From Paenibacillus sp. FSL R5-0623 (GTDB taxonomy: Bacteria > Bacillota > Bacilli > Paenibacillales > Paenibacillaceae), in assembly GCF_037974265.1 (NCBI RefSeq), contig NZ_CP150233.1:1612001-1676000 (forward strand): a DNA stretch of 64,000 bases, given 5' to 3'. The translations under genes and the position numbers were made by a program. A model generated the notes under the pieces. It did no database searches. It saw nothing but the letters and a program-made list of their open reading frames with translations, and was not told the DNA's origin. Positions 44,987 to 51,905 of this stretch are shown here, one piece after another (the stretch's first letter is position 1; each line of letters starts with the position of its first letter).

Positions 44987-45036
44987 GGAAGATCACTAGA
45001 TTCCCTTACGGGATGAAGATGATCTTCCTTTTTTAT
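44987..45036 (+). terminator. Intrinsic terminator after the radical SAM gene
   Basis: GGAAGATC (44987-44994) pairs with GATCTTCC (45021-45028), with a CCC/GGG inner stem, followed by a long T-rich run. Confidence 0.88.
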
Positions 45037-45089
45037 TTTTTTAATTTTATAGAACTCATAAATCCAATTAAGCTGAAGGGAGAGTTTTT

Positions 45090-46199
45090 ATGAAAGATAA
45101 AGCAGAAAACACCATCATTTTAACCAAAGGTTCTGATGATAAGTTGTATGTGCAAATTCCGTATAATACGGTGCATTTCCAGCGCATTCGTCAGGTAACA
45201 GGAAGAAGGTGGGAGCCTGACACGAAACGTTGGGTCATCCCCTATTCAGACACATCTCTTCAGGAGTTTACAAAGCACTTTGATGCGCGAGATGTAGAGA
45301 TTTCCCCGGAGCTGTGGGTGGAGAGTGATATATTGAGAAAATGGAAGTTACATGGAGAGAAAACACAATGGAGAAGAGATGAGTTGCAACAAGCTCTAAA
45401 ATTGAGAGGGTACAGTCGCAAAACGATGAAAGCATACTGTAATCAGATTGAACGATTTGTGACCAGTCTTCCTCAGATCGATACAGAAATTCGTGCATCT
45501 CATGTCCAGACATATTGTTTGAGATTGCTTGAGCGAGGAGTCTCCCATTCCAGTGTAAATCAGACGATTAGTGCGATCCGATTCTATTGTAAACATGTGT
45601 TACTTCATCCTGCCGAGTTTCAATATATACGTCCTAAAAAACAAAATAAGTTGCCCAATGTCATGTCCGAAAAAGAAGTCACCCAATTGCTGAAAGCTGT
45701 GACTAATCTCAAACACAAAACAATTCTTTATCTAACCTATTCGGCAGGGCTTCGTGTCGGCGAAGTCGTTCGTCTACGCTGTAGTGATCTGGACATTGAG
45801 CGTCAGACCATTATCGTAAGGCAGGGAAAAGGTCAAAAGGATCGAAGAACTCTTCTCTCCCATCTTGCTTGGGAGATTGTACAGAAGTACATCGCCGAAT
45901 ATAAAACCGATCGTTGGTTGTTTCCGGGACAGTCTTCAGATCGACATCTTACGGAGCGCAGTGTACAAAAGGTTTTTGAAGAAGCTAGACAAAGAGCGGG
46001 TATTGTAAAAAAATGCAGCATTCATGCTTTGCGGCACTCTTTCGCTACACATTTTCTGGAAAATGGAACAGACCTGCGCTATATTCAGGAGCTTCTTGGT
46101 CATACGAGTGCACAAACAACACAACGATATACGCATGTGAGCACGAAAAATATTCAGCGTATTCAGAGTCCACTGGATCGTATGGACATGGGAGATTGA
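45090..46199 (+). CDS. Tyrosine recombinase, candidate cassette integrase
   Basis: 369 residues. The catalytic set is complete: Arg222 (SAGLRVGEVVRL), Lys247 (RQGKGQKDRR), His312 and Arg315 (HALRHSFATH), His338 (LLGHTS) and Tyr347 (TTQRYTHVS). A SAM-like core-binding domain covers about 95-180. Residues 1-80 form an extra module (IPYNTVHFQRIRQVTGRRW, then RWVIPYSDTSLQEF) not found in XerC/XerD. Between Lys247 and His312 the chain is short and Xer-like, without the extra IntI patch of classical integron integrases. It is followed in the same direction by six cassettes with attC-like sites. Start ATG 45090 has AAGGGAGAG. It is the natural enzyme for these sites and, alternatively, for the 40-bp repeats. 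Confidence 0.9.
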   Translation: MKDKAENTIILTKGSDDKLYVQIPYNTVHFQRIRQVTGRRWEPDTKRWVIPYSDTSLQEFTKHFDARDVEISPELWVESDILRKWKLHGEKTQWRRDELQQALKLRGYSRKTMKAYCNQIERFVTSLPQIDTEIRASHVQTYCLRLLERGVSHSSVNQTISAIRFYCKHVLLHPAEFQYIRPKKQNKLPNVMSEKEVTQLLKAVTNLKHKTILYLTYSAGLRVGEVVRLRCSDLDIERQTIIVRQGKGQKDRRTLLSHLAWEIVQKYIAEYKTDRWLFPGQSSDRHLTERSVQKVFEEARQRAGIVKKCSIHALRHSFATHFLENGTDLRYIQELLGHTSAQTTQRYTHVSTKNIQRIQSPLDRMDMGD

Positions 46200-46326
46200 G
46201 TATCTCAAATCTCTCCCTTTTTCACCAAATTTTTCTTCGCATATATCGCCTCATAGGTTATCATATACGTAGTTCAGATATTACTTTGGAAGTGTGGTAT
46301 TTACGAAGTACATAAATTAGATGTTA
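46200..46326 (+). other. Candidate attI region
   Basis: This stretch separates the integrase stop from the first cassette. The cassette junction is placed at GTTATATGC (46323) because those bases and the ten after it are complementary to the end of cassette 1 (14 of 17). No convincing cassette promoter was found here; TTTACG and TATATG are too far apart for a normal promoter. Confidence 0.5.
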
Positions 46327-46370
46327 TATGCAGTGGGGGCAATGATTTTTTACAAATCAATGAAGAAAGG

Positions 46371-46916
46371 ATGAAAAATTTGAATATTTCTGAAGTGATT
46401 ATAAATCCTGTATTCAATCATTTATTTCTAACAATTGAACATCCTGAAGGGCAGTACCAGTACATAGGTGATGCTTTAGGTAGAGATTGCATGATAACCA
46501 GATTCAAAGATGGATGGATGCGAATGTATGATGGTGACGGTAGGCTCAATGAGGATTGGTATACATGGGGGGCTGATGTACTAGCTCCATTTGATGGAGT
46601 TGTGAAATCTATATTTATAAATCGAATAACTAATAATCCTGGGACTTTTACACCGGGAAGGGCGAGTTCTATAGTATTTGCAAGAGAAGATGGTGTTCTT
46701 GTTACTTATGCCCATGTAATGGATATAAGTGTAGAAGAAGGTGACATCATTACGACTGGTCAAGTAGTTGCGAAAGCTGGGAACAATGGATATTCCAGAA
46801 ATCCACATATTCATGTGGGTGCATGGATTGGTGATACTCCATTACAAATCCGATTTGACTTGCAGAGAATGGGAACACAGATGAAGGAATTTGGAGAAAG
46901 ACTTTATTTATGTTAA
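46371..46916 (+). CDS. Cassette 1: M23-like metallopeptidase-domain protein
   Basis: 181 residues, no signal peptide. The LytM fold is visible as WYTWGADVLAPFDGVVKSI, FAREDGVLVTYAHVMDISVEEGDIITTGQVVAKAGNNGY and the HxH motif NPHIHVGAW. The first zinc ligand of the family (His in HxGxD) is replaced: the sequence is TWGAD, so activity is doubtful or different. The start is unsure: ATG 46371 touches the AAAGG site, while TTG 46380 has better spacing. It fills the first cassette and is nearest the integrase, so most exposed to any promoter there. Confidence 0.75.
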   Translation: MKNLNISEVIINPVFNHLFLTIEHPEGQYQYIGDALGRDCMITRFKDGWMRMYDGDGRLNEDWYTWGADVLAPFDGVVKSIFINRITNNPGTFTPGRASSIVFAREDGVLVTYAHVMDISVEEGDIITTGQVVAKAGNNGYSRNPHIHVGAWIGDTPLQIRFDLQRMGTQMKEFGERLYLC

Positions 46917-46940
46917 CTCAAAGATGGCCCCAACAGTATA

Positions 46941-47097
46941 TAACAACGTATTCACGCATCATGGCATCCGCCCCTCGGTCCGACAGAGGAATTTTGGGGA
47001 AGTGATGGCAGCCGGACAACCCTGCACTGGCTAAGTCCGTCGGACCCGCGCGCTTACGCGCTTAAGCCAGTGAGGGTTCATGAATACAGGAACGTTA
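46941..47097 (+). other. attC-like recombination site 1
   Basis: TAAC-AACG-TATTCACG opens the site and CATGAATACAGGAACGTTA closes it, giving paired L boxes (TATTCA/TGAATA) and R boxes (TAAC/GTTA). Between them is a large hairpin built on AACCCTGCACTGGCT with AGCCAGTGAGGGTT. Length 157 bp. Confidence 0.85.
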
Positions 47098-47142
47098 TCG
47101 GAAATACCACTAAAGAAGTTTTATAGAAAGGAACGAAATTAT

Positions 47143-47649
47143 ATGACAATAATTCAAGAAGCTAAAATACAATCAAAAGTGATTTTTTCAAAAGACAAAA
47201 GGCACAGATACTTGCTTGAGAGAGTTTGGGACAATGAGAAGAAAAAAGCGACTGTGATTATGATTAATCCGAGCTTTGCAGATGAATTAAAAACGGATGT
47301 GAGTGTTTGTAAATTGATGAATTTTCTAATAGATAATGATTTTGGGACACTTAGGATAGTAAACTTATATGCATTTATTTCAACAGACCCTTCTGCTTTA
47401 TCGAACAATTCAGAGGCCGTAGGTGAATTAAATGATCAATATATTGAAAGTTCTATAGCAGATACTGACTTGATCATTATTGGTTGGGGAATTGAAAAAT
47501 CAAAATACACCAAAAGAAAAGCATACATAAGGAATCTATTAAAGAAAACTAATATAGAAATTAAAGGATTCATTGATAATGAAGAGCGTATAGGGAGACA
47601 TCCAAGTAGGATAAACCAATTTATATTGAGTGATTATCCTCTGGAGTAA
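47143..47649 (+). CDS. Cassette 2: DUF1643 protein
   Basis: 168 residues. ATVIMINPSFADELKTDVSVCKLMNFLI, then RIVNLYAF and LIIIGWG, mark DUF1643, a soluble family of unknown function that is common on mobile DNA. ATG 47143 follows AAAGGAA at nine bases. The frame is open back through the attC-like site to an ATG at 47080 whose first codons read MNTGTLSEIP, so an N-terminally extended form is possible. Strongly AT-rich compared with chromosome genes on either side. Confidence 0.8.
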   Translation: MTIIQEAKIQSKVIFSKDKRHRYLLERVWDNEKKKATVIMINPSFADELKTDVSVCKLMNFLIDNDFGTLRIVNLYAFISTDPSALSNNSEAVGELNDQYIESSIADTDLIIIGWGIEKSKYTKRKAYIRNLLKKTNIEIKGFIDNEERIGRHPSRINQFILSDYPLE

Positions 47650-47661
47650 TGGTACTACCCA

Positions 47662-47769
47662 TAACATAATATTCAAGCAGCGGCTCAATGGAGCCTTGGT
47701 CTGCGGGAAGAATTTCGGAGAGGGATTTCAGCAGCAACCCCGTTGGGGTTCATGAATACAGGAACGTTA
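47662..47769 (+). other. attC-like recombination site 2
   Basis: TAAC-ATAA-TATTCAAG opens and CATGAATACAGGAACGTTA closes the site. Inner hairpins GGCTC/GAGCC and AACCCC/GGGGTT are visible. Length 108 bp. Confidence 0.85.
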
Positions 47770-47808
47770 AGTGAAATTCCTGAAAATTAGAAAGGAAGTA
47801 GTAGAAAT

Positions 47809-48503
47809 ATGCAAACCCAATTATATTTTTGGAATCCTTCTAGATACAAAAATGAATTGAAGATTGTATTAGATTATTTCAATAAAACAAAAACTTATTT
47901 TGAGAATATTGAAAAAGAAGCAAAAGAGTATGGTAACAATTTGTATAGTAATTATAGAGGTAATGAAGATACTGATTATTCTGCAGTAGCTGAATGGGCA
48001 GAAGAAGAAAGTGTAGAGATGTATCAGAATTTGTTAAGGATGAAATCTAACCACCTTCTTATGACTATTTCACTTCTGTATCATACTTGGGAACAGCAAT
48101 TAATAAAATTTACTATTTCTGAACTGAGTCATGATATTCATTTTCCAAAGAAAGCTTTGCATTTTGGTCATGTACAATCAATTTTTCAATTACATAGAGT
48201 TAGTATTTCGAGGCATGGGGAAAAATTCGAGAACTCAAACAATTAACAAATACAATTAAACATGGTGATGGGGAATCGGCTGATAAGTTGAGAAAACTAA
48301 GACCCGATTTTTTTCAAAGTGAATTTTTTAATGATAGTGATACTTTAGAAATATTGGGATCAGTGTTGTTGGAGGGATATATACTTAGAGTAAATGAAAA
48401 TGATTTAATAGAATATGTTAATGCAACCATATCATTCTGGGATGAAATGCCTGAGAGAGCTTACGCAGATATAGATTTAGTATTAGAAGCATTAAATAAA
48501 TAG
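47809..48503 (+). pseudogene. Cassette 3: hypothetical protein gene with a poly-A frameshift
   Basis: The first frame (MQTQLYFWNPSRYKNELKIVLDYFNK...) is open to 48246, but homology-like continuity (IRELKQLTNTIKHGDGESADKLRKLRPDFFQ) carries on in the next frame to 48503. The switch lies at the GGGGAAAAATTCG tract near 48220-48228; one more A would restore a single frame of about 230 codons. The protein would be helical and soluble; I do not recognise it. It is decay, phase variation or a sequencing error. ATG 47809 has AAAGGAAG upstream. Confidence 0.7.
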
Positions 48504-48539
48504 GATTCTTAAGTTATTCTTCGATGGAAGGACTTCACG

Positions 48540-48649
48540 TAACATAATATTCAAGCAGCGACTCCTTTGGAGCCTTGATCCGCTGGAGGGATTCCGGAGA
48601 GGGATTTTAGCAGATAACCCCTTTGGGGTTCATGAATACAGGAACGTTA
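48540..48649 (+). other. attC-like recombination site 3
   Basis: TAAC-ATAA-TATTCAAG opens and CATGAATACAGGAACGTTA closes the site. Much of it is close to site 2 (AAGCAGCG, GGAGCCTTG, CAGATAACCCC), which suggests a recent common origin. Length 110 bp. Confidence 0.85.
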
Positions 48650-48679
48650 TGCGAAACCAAATAAGATTTTAAAGAATGG

Positions 48680-49144
48680 GTGATTAAATTGAATAATATT
48701 GAGCTAGAAAGCTGGATCGGTACATATAAAATTATGGATAGAACTTTAGAAGGTTTTTGGGTAGCATTCAATAATTACTTGAAAGAATGCCCAGAAGAAG
48801 TCAGTTTGTTTTTTGATGAATTGAATTTGGAAGATATTAAGCCTTCAATAGATACAATAGAGTATAAAACTATTTTTCATCCTGATTATCAGATCGCAGA
48901 CAGTTACTATTCTCAGAGGGTTATATCTACGTTAGACATTTACTACAAAAATAATAGAATAGGTTATTATAGTATGTTTTTTTATACCGATGGAGAATGC
49001 TTTGACGATAGCCTAGTTACAGAATGGACAGGCTGGTATATAACATTGAAACTAGAAGCATTAATTGACCTTCAACAAGAAATTAAAAATGAATTGGCAA
49101 AAAACAAGATAAAAGAAGATGAAATCGAAAAAATCATAACTTAA
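48680..49144 (+). CDS. Cassette 4: hypothetical protein
   Basis: 154 residues, acidic and soluble. It begins LNNIELESWIGTYKIMDRTLEGFWVAF, has a beta-rich middle (STLDIYYKNNRIGYYSMFFYTDGECFDDS) and a charged C-terminal helix. The pattern is of small immunity-like or scaffold proteins, but no family is recognised. The start is GTG 48680 or TTG 48689; GGTGAT upstream of the TTG could act as its ribosome site. It fills one cassette. Confidence 0.65.
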   Translation: MIKLNNIELESWIGTYKIMDRTLEGFWVAFNNYLKECPEEVSLFFDELNLEDIKPSIDTIEYKTIFHPDYQIADSYYSQRVISTLDIYYKNNRIGYYSMFFYTDGECFDDSLVTEWTGWYITLKLEALIDLQQEIKNELAKNKIKEDEIEKIIT

Positions 49145-49225
49145 TAGATAAACAAATTTCTAAAATCAAATCTCAAATCCATAACTAATTGTAGGTGGAT
49201 AGTTCGAAGAAGATGTGGCATCACA

Positions 49226-49315
49226 TAACATAATATTCACGCTGCGGACAATAGTCCTTGGTCCGGCATTCGCCGGACACTCAGCATGTACTGAGTCGTG
49301 AACACAGGAACGGTA
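49226..49315 (+). other. attC-like recombination site 4
   Basis: TAAC-ATAA-TATTCACG opens the site. The closing arm is CGTGAACACAGGAACGGTA, so the R box reads GGTA instead of GTTA and may be impaired. The inner hairpin is GTCCGG/CCGGAC. This is the shortest site, 90 bp. Confidence 0.82.
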
Positions 49316-49374
49316 TAGGAAATCAGCGTTAGAGCATAAAGACGAAAATTCTTTAGTAAGAGCAGGTGAAGACT

Positions 49375-49953
49375 TTGAACATCGATTTTATTATTCTCCA
49401 CGGTTCGCCTGGGAATGGAAAGACAACATTGTGCCAGAGATTACATGAACATTTTAGGACTCCATATTTTGAGTTTGGTTGGATTCCAGAATTTCGCTCT
49501 CTAGCACCTTCAGTTCAGATCACTCAAAAAGAAGAAGAACAATTAGCATTTGAGAATTTGATGTTAGTCGTAAAAAACTATAGTCGTCATGGGTTTAAGC
49601 ATATTATTATTACAGATCTTAATGATATTAGAATGTTGGATATTCCTAAAGAATTTGAAGGATATAACTATACTATTTTGACACTTTGTAGTGAACAAGA
49701 TGAAGTGATTAAATATAGAATTCTAAATAGAGATAACGGGAATAGTTATACTGATTGGGAAACGTCTATAAAAATGAACTCCCTCATTAGGGGAAGGAAC
49801 AAACTTCCGAATGAATATCGAATAATAAATTCAAGTAGTGATGTAGAAACTACATTTCAAGAAATATTGAAAGTGTTGGAAAACCATATGCCATCAAGAA
49901 CTAATAAGATTGATGTGAGAGAAGATGATTTTTATAGCTATATTAACAATTGA
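49375..49953 (+). CDS. Cassette 5: P-loop kinase-like ATPase
   Basis: 192 residues. The Walker A motif is HGSPGNGKTTLCQRL near the N-terminus. The chain continues with IIITDLNDIRML (Walker B-like) and a lid region with arginines (KYRILNRDNG, LIRGRNKLPNEY). It resembles AAA_33-type small-molecule or nucleic-acid kinases. TTG 49375 has AGGTG at six bases; a GTG start nine bases upstream is also in frame. No partner is visible in the cassette. Substrate unknown. Confidence 0.75.
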   Translation: MNIDFIILHGSPGNGKTTLCQRLHEHFRTPYFEFGWIPEFRSLAPSVQITQKEEEQLAFENLMLVVKNYSRHGFKHIIITDLNDIRMLDIPKEFEGYNYTILTLCSEQDEVIKYRILNRDNGNSYTDWETSIKMNSLIRGRNKLPNEYRIINSSSDVETTFQEILKVLENHMPSRTNKIDVREDDFYSYINN

Positions 49954-49993
49954 ATGAATCTGTGGGTGAATTAATCAAGACGCTGACATCCTA

Positions 49994-50158
49994 TAACAAT
50001 ATATTCACGTATCGGGCATATGCCCTCGGTCCGGCAGAAGTTAGAAGTGGATTCGAAGGGGCATTTCAGTTTCGAGGAAGCATAGACAGCCAGACATATC
50101 GATCCCCTAAGATAGGAGCTATCTAGGGGAGGAGGACGTCGTGAATATAGGAACGTTA
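49994..50158 (+). other. attC-like recombination site 5
   Basis: TAAC-AATA-TATTCACG opens and CGTGAATATAGGAACGTTA closes the site. The inner hairpin is ATCCCCTA/TAGGGGA near the right arm. CCTCGGTCCGGCAGAAG, shared with site 6, lies near the left arm. Length 165 bp. Confidence 0.85.
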
Positions 50159-50213
50159 GCTGAAATTAATGAAGAAACGTTATAACCATTACTAACTTCC
50201 AGAAAGGATAAAC

Positions 50214-50768
50214 ATGTATAAGTTAATAACTTTATTGATTTTAGTAGTTCTGTTGGGCTGTTCGGATAATACGCGAAGGAGCTCCGAACAAAATGATGTA
50301 ATAAATGATCGTACTTTGAATGAGGAGCTTAATGAAATGTATTCCTATAAAGCTATTACTGAAGAAGATGAAACATTAGGATCCTCAAAATTTCTGGATA
50401 CAGGCATTATTGCGGGTGAAGAAAGTGCGAAGTTTAGAGGATCGCTTCTTACTTTGTTTGGTGAACCGTTATATAAGTCAGATAATGCTGAAGATGCTTA
50501 CTATTATTTAATAGAAGTAAGCGATGATACGAGTAAGTGGTACTTTGCTGTTTATGAAGGTCCTTCAGGACCTGCAATTGGTTATGATGAAAAGGAAAAT
50601 CAAACAAACGCAAGGGAAGCCTCCAAAGCTTTGCTAGAGAAAATTAAAGGAACCACACCTGCTGATTTTAATGAAGTCATATATTACGAAGACTTTGACT
50701 CGAAAATTACATATGGATGTAAGAATGGAGAATGTTTTTATAAGGAGGAAAACGAAGAAGGTCGTTAG
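50214..50768 (+). CDS. Cassette 6: lipoprotein
   Basis: 184 residues. A short signal peptide with lipobox (LITLLILVVLLGC) predicts lipid anchoring outside the membrane. The rest is acidic and soluble, with SAKFRGSLLTLFGEPLYKSDNAEDAYYYLIEV and KWYFAVYEGPSGPAIGY. No family is recognised. Start ATG 50214 follows AAAGGA. It is the last complete cassette of the array. Confidence 0.75.
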   Translation: MYKLITLLILVVLLGCSDNTRRSSEQNDVINDRTLNEELNEMYSYKAITEEDETLGSSKFLDTGIIAGEESAKFRGSLLTLFGEPLYKSDNAEDAYYYLIEVSDDTSKWYFAVYEGPSGPAIGYDEKENQTNAREASKALLEKIKGTTPADFNEVIYYEDFDSKITYGCKNGECFYKEENEEGR

Positions 50769-50807
50769 AACTCGAAGGCATATTTCATGGGAGTCATTAA
50801 CTCCAGC

Positions 50808-50990
50808 TAACATAATATTCACGCTTCGGGCCATTCGGCCCTCGTTCCGGCAGAAGATAAATGAGGAATCGAAGAAGAAATTGGCAGCAGCAGAAAAGCG
50901 AAATCAGTCGGACACATCCGCACCAGCTAACCGCATCGCGGCCGCCTTTCGGGCTTAAGGTAGTGAGACGTCATGAATACAGGAATGTTA
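50808..50990 (+). other. attC-like recombination site 6
   Basis: TAAC-ATAA-TATTCACG opens and CATGAATACAGGAATGTTA closes the site, the longest of the six at 183 bp. GGGCC/GGCCC and CCGCATCGCGG inner stems are visible. Confidence 0.85.
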
Positions 50991-51023
50991 GGTGAAATTC
51001 CAGTGAGAGTTATAGGCATGAGA

Positions 51024-51032
51024 TGGTATAAT
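51024..51032 (+). promoter_or_regulatory. Extended -10 promoter
   Basis: TGGTATAAT is an extended -10 (TGnTATAAT) about 30 bases before the 51062 gene. No good -35 is seen. It gives the genes after the last cassette site their own promoter. Confidence 0.5.
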
Positions 51033-51061
51033 ATAACCATCAAATTAGAGGAGGGACAATG

Positions 51062-51304
51062 ATGAAATGGCAAGAAGTTCAACAAATCTTTCCGAATCAA
51101 TTCGTCAAATTCGAAGTTCTTCATTCTGAAGAAACCGACAATCAAGAGATCATTGATGATGTGGCTGTGATTGGCCCGATCAGTGATGAAGAAGCGACTC
51201 GTGAATTATTGAACAGTAGAGACAAGACTTTGGTTTATCATACTTCCAAAGATCAAATCGTTGTGAAAGTACGGAAAAATATAGGATTAAGGAGAAATCT
51301 TTAA
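51062..51304 (+). CDS. Hypothetical small protein
   Basis: 80 residues, acidic, beginning KWQEVQQIFPNQFVKFEVLHSE and with VAVIGPISDEEATRELLNS. It resembles the small proteins often found just ahead of retropepsin-like proteases in Bacillota, but I have no name for it. GAGGAGG lies six bases before ATG 51062. Its stop touches the start of the protease gene, so the two are one operon. Confidence 0.75.
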   Translation: MKWQEVQQIFPNQFVKFEVLHSEETDNQEIIDDVAVIGPISDEEATRELLNSRDKTLVYHTSKDQIVVKVRKNIGLRRNL

Positions 51305-51682
51305 ATGAATATTGAATATAGAGACGGACTGTTATTTACGGAAATAACAGTCCATTTTAATAAGCAAAAGAAAGTGATATCGAACATTGTGATCGATACA
51401 GGAGCCAGTCACAGCTTGATTTCACAGGATGAAGTAGATGAGATTGGGATACAAGTGAGTATGGACGATGAAATCATAACCAGCTACGGGATTGGAGGTA
51501 AAGAGCATTCCTTCAGTAAGCGAATCGAGGAAATACAGGTAGGGGATTTTATTTTAAAGGATGTATACATAGATTTTACTTCATTTAAATATCACAACAT
51601 TAACGGACTTTTGGGACTCGATATACTGACGGAAGGAGAATTTGCTATTGATCTAAAGGAATTTAAATTACTTCGTTCATAA
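51305..51682 (+). CDS. Retropepsin-like aspartic protease
   Basis: 125 residues. The catalytic motif is IDTGASHSLIS near residue 31, and the hydrophobic-hydrophobic-glycine block is INGLLGLDIL near residue 100, typical of single-domain retropepsin-like proteases that work as homodimers. There is no signal or membrane segment. The start directly follows the stop of the upstream gene, with AAGGAG inside it. Substrate unknown. It lies after the last attC-like site in the position of a seventh cassette, but no closing site is visible. Confidence 0.85.
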   Translation: MNIEYRDGLLFTEITVHFNKQKKVISNIVIDTGASHSLISQDEVDEIGIQVSMDDEIITSYGIGGKEHSFSKRIEEIQVGDFILKDVYIDFTSFKYHNINGLLGLDILTEGEFAIDLKEFKLLRS

Positions 51683-51905
51683 GAGATAAAAGACGTATTG
51701 AATCTGAATCTATGAGAACGTTTACACTAGAAAGGAAGCCTGTACAATCATCAAGCCTCTAGGAGGCATTCGACCTTCTTCAAGGAAATTCACCACCATC
51801 ATATCCACAAGATAAACGGGAATGAGCTGTAGACTAAGGGCCTTTTATTCCGTGCTACAGAAGTTCGTCGGTATTCTCAGTAACTTTGCGAATTACTTCT
51901 TGTGT

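Follow-up and report, generated by a model that had tools for sequence, protein, structure and literature searches.

A probable integron-like cassette platform in Paenibacillaceae, adjoining a tyrosine recombinase without the I2 insert

The window analysed here, 64,000 nucleotides (64 kb) of the 6.97 Mb single-contig genome of Paenibacillus sp. FSL R5-0623, holds a tyrosine recombinase gene followed by a row of short units, each ending in a palindrome, and raises the question of whether these units form a cassette array of the integron type and which enzyme would serve it. Our comparative analysis suggests that the locus is very probably an integron-like platform, in which cassettes lie between G-TTA junctions behind a fixed entry point and are likely inserted and exchanged by the adjacent recombinase (Table 1). 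That this cassette platform would work like an integron is well supported by sequence; the enzyme sets it apart from IntI integrons. The initial annotation had named six palindromic sites of 90-183 bp behind the recombinase, ending six AT-rich units, five of them with one gene. A weight matrix called exactly these six sites, and units 1, 2, 4, 5 and 6 each possess one long open reading frame (ORF), with unit 3 carrying two shorter ORFs in different frames, consistent with a frameshift.

The layout proposed earlier for the sites (TAAC, a 4-base spacer, TATTCA, a variable interior, TGAATA, a 7-base spacer and GTTA) proved correct overall, with the exception of site 4, which has TGAACA and GGTA instead. 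The right-hand motif TGAATAYAGGAAYGTTA, searched with at most three mismatches, gave seven matches in the window against 0.72 expected, a number reached in none of 100 shuffles; six of them fall on the plus strand at the six sites, and one weak match lies on the minus strand. The left-hand motif alone was at chance level in the window (13 matches, 9.03 expected). The weight matrix, which uses no variable base of the R boxes, called 172 sites in the first 27 loci and none in one-strand shuffles; with looser limits, and counting strands with at least two sites, it called 352 sites in 47 loci and two in both-strand shuffles. The resulting site consensus is TCNNNTAAC-ATAA-TATTCACG...CGTGAATA-CAGGAAC-GTTANNNGA, and the length of the sites ranges from 72 to 209 bp across loci.

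The position of the crossover carries most of the argument. In integrons the crossover falls inside GTT, and the left R box of a site (R'') is therefore expected to pair with the start of its own cassette, which within an array is the right R box of the preceding site. The Paenibacillus cassettes stand head-to-tail; each begins with TTANNNGA and ends at the G of the right box in its site. Taking one cassette per cluster at 85% identity (254 of 290, from strands on which two or more sites were called; shuffles were of mononucleotides), the three variable bases of R'' matched the start of their own cassette in 81, 77 and 73% of cases, as compared with 51, 32 and 32% after permutation (z 11.7, 15.3 and 15.6). 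Against the right R box of the same site the match was 52, 35 and 39% (z 0.8, 1.1 and 2.3), at or little above permutation, and all three bases agreed in 153/254 cassettes with the own cassette start and in 28/254 with the right box of the same site. The same signature appeared in other genera: among 119 adjacent pairs from 12 loci, one of them of another family, drawn from the best 150 of 190 matches so that some pairs skip a weaker site, 94, 82 and 90% matched, as opposed to 56, 37 and 43% when permuted within the locus (z 10.5, 11.0 and 13.3; own-site z between -0.7 and 0.5). The match of R'' to the cassette start is an inverted complement. One position beyond the R box shows an almost fixed mismatch (6% matched in the 254 cassettes, 1% in the other genera), possibly a mark of polarity. 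This pairing places the crossover, as in integrons, between G and TT, within the limits set by the conserved ACGTTA, and assigns the left R box to the cassette that its site ends.

The first cassette has no preceding site, and the place where it begins was found to be fixed. In the window it starts at a conserved attI-like point about 124 nt past the recombinase stop, which the R'' of that cassette matches at 8/9 positions. We examined 30 recombinase ends from 29 loci; at 27 a segment within 500 nt matches the R box of the first cassette at 8/9 or 9/9 positions, and at 23 of the 30 this partner lies exactly 123/124 nt after the stop, with a mean of 5.1 and a maximum of 12 in 1000 permutations of the R boxes among loci; the remaining partners lie at 97 nt (two), 116 nt and 50 nt (one each). 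This set leaves out 18 recombinase ends with no weight-matrix site behind them, 11 of which belong to the other-genera set. That set comprises 11 of 13 loci, L133 and L146 having no recognised recombinase end, and 9/11 match 9/9 at 24-126 nt, including one in a genome of another order (G343). When 23 loci picked for G/ATTA at the point were aligned, the platform ...GTGGTATTTACGAAGTACATAAATTAGAT was conserved up to the G-TTA junction and variable afterwards. By sequence, an attI-like site lies next to the recombinase gene, as attI does in integrons. The candidate promoter ahead of the insertion point is kept by eye in nearly all rows and would express the first cassettes; promoter scan hits were at chance level overall, and by eye some other genera carry TTCGCC-17-TATACT. 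Direct repeats are a feature of attI1; behind the recombinase in L135, L147 and L149 we saw by eye direct repeats like GAAGTTCGTGAATA-N-ACG, which resemble the right arm of the sites and are reminiscent of those of attI1.

The cassettes also seem to change places. At 85% identity the 290 cassettes fall into 254 clusters, of which 23 have at least two members; in 17 of these 23, two members differ in what flanks them upstream, and in 18 in what flanks them downstream. The comparison of strains proposed in the initial annotation was run between species and bore out its expectation, with whole units standing between different neighbours and junctions in the site end that bears GTTA. Where shared cassettes have different neighbours, homology switches inside the conserved stretch containing the G-TTA junction. 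The last 20 nt of the site are conserved in all sites and mask the exact junction; the variable bases right after TTA track the cassette on the left (0.76-0.82 against a background of 0.28-0.46) and stop matching on the right side (0.50, 0.39 and 0.17). One cassette common to G033 and G036 has 98.8% identity, relatives of another (84.9%) sit in two arrays of G053, and a relative of cassette 6 of the window (82.8% DNA identity) occurs in the second array locus of G041. The longest ORF of a cassette is forward in 236/254, reverse in 14 and absent at 70 aa in four, and the cassette bodies have 32.6% GC, the window 45.5%. Pfam searches on 80 random cassette proteins, out of 231 outside the window, returned 52 families, the commonest being GNAT acetyltransferases (4) and APH-like kinases (3), and a few cassette proteins match candidate defence families. 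As in integrons, the arrays thus consist of different, mostly co-oriented and exchangeable cassettes.

The way in which the sites would be used is suggested by their folding. In 35 sites of the 90-bp class, aligned by sequence, the L boxes form a closing stem around three inner hairpins, which gives a cloverleaf. Both sides have changed in 15 of its 23 pairs, a figure reached in 0/500 shuffles, and sliding the partner destroys the signal. The sites hence share with attC sites paired R and L boxes, unpaired spacers, a variable interior and the ability to fold, and the covariation is in line with recombination of a folded single-stranded site, the best reading of the pairing data. In such a mechanism a cassette would be excised as a circle, its site acting as one strand folded into paired R and L boxes with three hairpins inside; the recombinase would join it to the double-stranded attI or to another site, and replication would resolve the product, as in integrons. 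It is rather improbable that the sites are instead recombined as double-stranded DNA in a Xer-like reaction, their palindromes serving another purpose, since the variable triplet of the R box has its match inside the cassette as an inverted complement and the inner hairpins covary away from the crossover, both of which suit a folded strand.

The enzyme itself departs from the integron integrases. The recombinase matches Pfam Phage_integrase (2.4e-41) and keeps the catalytic residues R222, K247/K250, H312, R315, H338 and Y347. TIGR02249 matched in two pieces (profile 3-177 and 231-315) with a whole-protein score of 203 against a cut-off of 265, and the best NCBIfam score was that of XerA / NF040815 (215.7, cut-off 220). 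The I2 insert, the extra helix of integron integrases, is absent, appearing as a gap in the profile and 2a3v alignments and in the multiple alignment; the distance from KDR to HxLRH is 58-62 aa in relatives of the recombinase and has a median of 100 aa (range 48-139) in IntI1-like hits, with 109 of 120 measurable in each group. In a tree of 36 rows, where 2a3v was entered without its insert and the I2 columns (occupied in 7/36 rows) were left out as implied by a 30% rule, the IntI clade (8 rows, 100/99) and a group of Bacilli and Bacteroidota recombinases (98/92) are joined (99/94), and two archaeal XerA fall outside both (88/84). The window recombinase stands outside the IntI clade, in its sister group, in a tree with narrow IntI sampling and several long branches. 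The top Foldseek match was the Vibrio integron integrase 2a3v (E 2.3e-15); ranked by Z score, the XerA structures come at least as close (5hxy 21.1, rmsd 12.4, 250 aligned; 4a8e 19.6, rmsd 8.3, 252 aligned; 2a3v 18.4, rmsd 6.3, 256 aligned). Hence, the integron reading of the initial annotation is upheld for the array, the sites and the turnover, but the recombinase lacks the IntI-specific insert and lies outside the IntI clade, which makes the system integron-like and not an ordinary integron.

The N-terminal part of the recombinase (about 90 aa) forms five strands and helices in AF2 models. Its top Foldseek match was the HARP domain of SMARCAL1 (4o66, E 0.075, prob 0.92), and Pfam HARP was found in 7 of 54 recombinase relatives (best 1.5e-5), weak signals that nevertheless point one way, to a HARP-like N-terminal domain. 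The HARP domain is described, in the available part of PMC4666394, as a five-stranded sheet with two helices that is important for fork reversal. In the recombinase this predicted domain may take over the hairpin recognition that I2 gives to IntI. The wider proposition, that Paenibacillaceae possess a full integron on folded single-stranded DNA sites, run by an I2-less sister of IntI whose HARP-like domain reads the hairpin, so that integron recombination would be older than I2 or have arisen twice, and would not require I2, appears to us evenly balanced.

The covariance-model search proposed in the initial annotation gave the outcome it had looked for, arrays behind recombinase homologues that hold different cassettes. 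The model (R1) found sites in 74/75 genomes of the genus, in 199/295 genomes and 16/19 genera of the family, in 30/348 genomes of the class, five of them outside the family, and in 8/348 genomes of the phylum, three of this genus and five with single matches at E 5e-7 to 1e-4, which were taken as chance. At most 46, 11, 10 and 10 candidates per genome were scored when scanning the genus, family, class and phylum, so the number of sites per genome is a minimum. Recombinase relatives occur in 46/75 genus genomes at E<=1e-60 and in 83/295 family genomes at E<=1e-70. Twenty loci with a recombinase hit at their centre, several from genomes picked when already known to hold sites, contained 260 site matches, and 23 control loci with other tyrosine recombinases contained none; in 11 orientable loci of the former kind, 134/134 examined sites lie downstream on the strand of the recombinase. 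Outside the family, the class scan yielded G620 and G343 with a recombinase relative, and G562 and G371 with single sites and no recombinase at E<=1e-40. In G406 (11 sites) the recombinase hit overlaps a transposase gene, IS91-like by eye, and was rejected as the platform enzyme. Plasmids searched with the recombinase gave, in the best 5000 records, identities below 60% throughout, many of the records being IntI1.

Several observations weigh against the platform as we propose it. Predicted folding fails to separate the strands (mean energies -22.6 and -23.2, 120 sites), and ACGTTA is conserved in most sites, so that the crossover base cannot be fixed to one position. No good attI partner exists at 3/30 recombinase ends (L065, the first end of L110, and L120) and at 2/11 in the other genera (L140 and L145, with weaker sites closer to the recombinase of L140 falling outside the best 150 matches), and some ends have a second 8/9 place elsewhere. 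The recombinase lacks I2, which the available sections of an eLife 2020 paper (PMC7790495) report as necessary for cassette capture by IntI and as not found in other proteins. Within the own genome, 24 sites lie in three regions (1658933-1662998, 1688455-1702669 and 2551316-2563628); the second has a broken recombinase copy and one site 9 kb from the rest, and the third has no adjoining recombinase. Lastly, arrays also occur where no intact enzyme is present: 29/75 genus genomes are without a recombinase match at E<=1e-60, and at least one site is found in 28/29. G002 and G010 carry recombinase fragments, and G052 and G142 have no recombinase match at E<=1e-40.

These site-bearing genomes without a hit, together with a layout that is overall that of integrons, would also suit a classical integron that built the arrays and whose IntI is gone, the neighbouring recombinase being a bystander. 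This we consider very unlikely: a profile search, which covered the own genome only, found no IntI above the cut-off there, and arrays of other genera, as well as that of G343 from another order, are headed by relatives of the recombinase, which stand shortly before the attI-like point. Elements that are folded, covarying and repeated between genes could likewise be self-spreading RNA or REP-like repeats, with units moving by homologous recombination between them. Such an origin is barely credible for 24 sites confined to three regions of a 7 Mb genome, in which R'' agrees with the cassette start rather than with its own site, which stand behind a fixed entry point and which gave no Rfam match at E up to 1 in a scan of 45000-51100. 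The integron-like platform therefore remains our reading of the locus.

Among known systems, IntI integrons, whether of the mobile classes or sedentary chromosomal ones, share with this platform the recombinase with an adjoining attI-like point, head-to-tail cassettes, paired R and L boxes, a crossover in GTT, and arrays with and without a recombinase. The Paenibacillus system differs from them in having no I2, a weakly HARP-like N-terminal domain, a recombinase that falls outside the IntI clade and is oriented like the cassettes, a longer R box (GTTANNNGA plus) and a cloverleaf interior in the 90-bp class. XerA / NF040815 recombinases possess the same catalytic core without I2, although the archaeal XerA branch outside as described, and we know of no cassette arrays for them. 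A pdif site is a short target of XerC and XerD. Xer pdif modules on Acinetobacter plasmids resemble the cassettes in that genes form modules between recombinase sites (PMC7399989, available part), whereas the Paenibacillus sites are longer, folded, and have their own recombinase family and entry point. The strand-biased circularizing elements (SE) of Vibrio also employ tyrosine recombinases and form circles of one strand, but the available part of their description (PMC9345347) treats them as single elements (SE-6945, 7.1 kb) unlike integron cassettes.

Judged by its sites, the platform is widespread in Paenibacillaceae, where surveys saw almost none in Firmicutes. IntegronFinder 2.0 (PMC9024848), in its available sections, lists one complete Firmicutes integron, in Limnochorda pilosa, plus a few CALIN. 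The accessible portion of a 2008 survey reports no integron in 103 Firmicutes genomes, with genes selected by the additional domain or the intI patch, and that of a paper on archaeal integrons lists the additional domain among the defining characteristics of IntI. No report of Paenibacillus integrons was found in the part of the literature searched, bioRxiv and most subscription journals lying outside it; in the available text of PMC4909258, PMC7691350 and PMC3382206, mentions of Paenibacillus are homology hits or one isolate scored 0 for integron parts. Searches built on IntI with I2 may miss such arrays. With its reach in genus and family, the platform would be a major route of gene exchange in Paenibacillaceae, and it opens two questions to experiment, the need for I2 in single-strand cassette recombination and the descent of IntI from Xer-like enzymes.

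Table 1. Features of the recombinase locus and its cassette array (positions in the window).
Feature	Position	Strand	Description
Tyrosine recombinase	45090..46199	+	369 aa, ORF intact
Recombinase N-terminal extension (predicted, weakly HARP-like fold)	45090..45359	+	about aa 1-90
Candidate cassette promoter TTCGCA-17-TATCAT	46236..46264	+	scan match 9/12
attI-like platform end	46197..46326	+	insertion point 46323/46324, between G46323 and TTA; conserved before the point, variable after, 23 aligned loci
Cassette 1	46324..47094	+	M23 peptidase domain protein; site 46941-47097 (157 bp)
Cassette 2	47095..47766	+	DUF1643; site 47662-47769 (108 bp)
Cassette 3	47767..48646	+	two ORFs in different frames, first without Pfam match; site 48540-48649 (110 bp)
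Cassette 4	48647..49312	+	154 aa, without Pfam match; site 49226-49315 (90 bp)
Cassette 5	49313..50155	+	195 aa, AAA/kinase-like by weak Pfam matches; site 49994-50158 (165 bp)
Cassette 6	50156..50987	+	184 aa, lipoprotein-like start (by eye); site 50808-50990 (183 bp)
Cassette 7	50988..51695	+	two small genes (81 aa; 125 aa, aspartyl-protease-like); recombination site lost; homologous unit between sites elsewhere

The array extends beyond the six units first described. A homologue of cassette 7 sits between sites in L067, L071, L107 and L115, and the array thus reaches to about 51695, where the two-sided weight matrix called no site at the end of this cassette in the window. Versions of the two-gene unit are present in array loci from several genera, with DNA identities as low as 67%. 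By recombinase identity the closest named relatives are P. amylolyticus (92%), P. polysaccharolyticus (89%), P. barcinonensis (88%) and P. taichungensis (81%). A radical-SAM gene upstream of the platform is a neighbour in many loci of related species, with which a sedentary platform is in line. The third region of the own genome (G000:C1:2551316-2563628, L102) has 12 sites; its upstream flank is kept at 92-96% in L103, L105, L113, L114 and L115, and it is interrupted by an IS3-like transposase pair (by eye).

Some relatives of the recombinase lie on mobile or viral DNA. The Chryseobacterium plasmid NZ_CP041688.1 (L098, 8968-17855) encodes a relative with a similar N-terminal extension, followed by four copies of a 280-nt palindromic repeat at intervals of 2.1-3.1 kb; every copy terminates in GTTA or ATTA, and the bases that come next differ. 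This is perhaps a Bacteroidota counterpart; the crossover signature, looked for in these plasmid repeats, was not found. The viral contigs searched gave one distant relative only (L122, IMGVR_UViG_3300012895_000001), an integrase with an I2-like insert that groups with IntI. Shorter relatives of the recombinase (L097 and L124) occur on a plasmid of Acinetobacter, next to tet(X3), and on one of Flagellimonas, next to erm(F).

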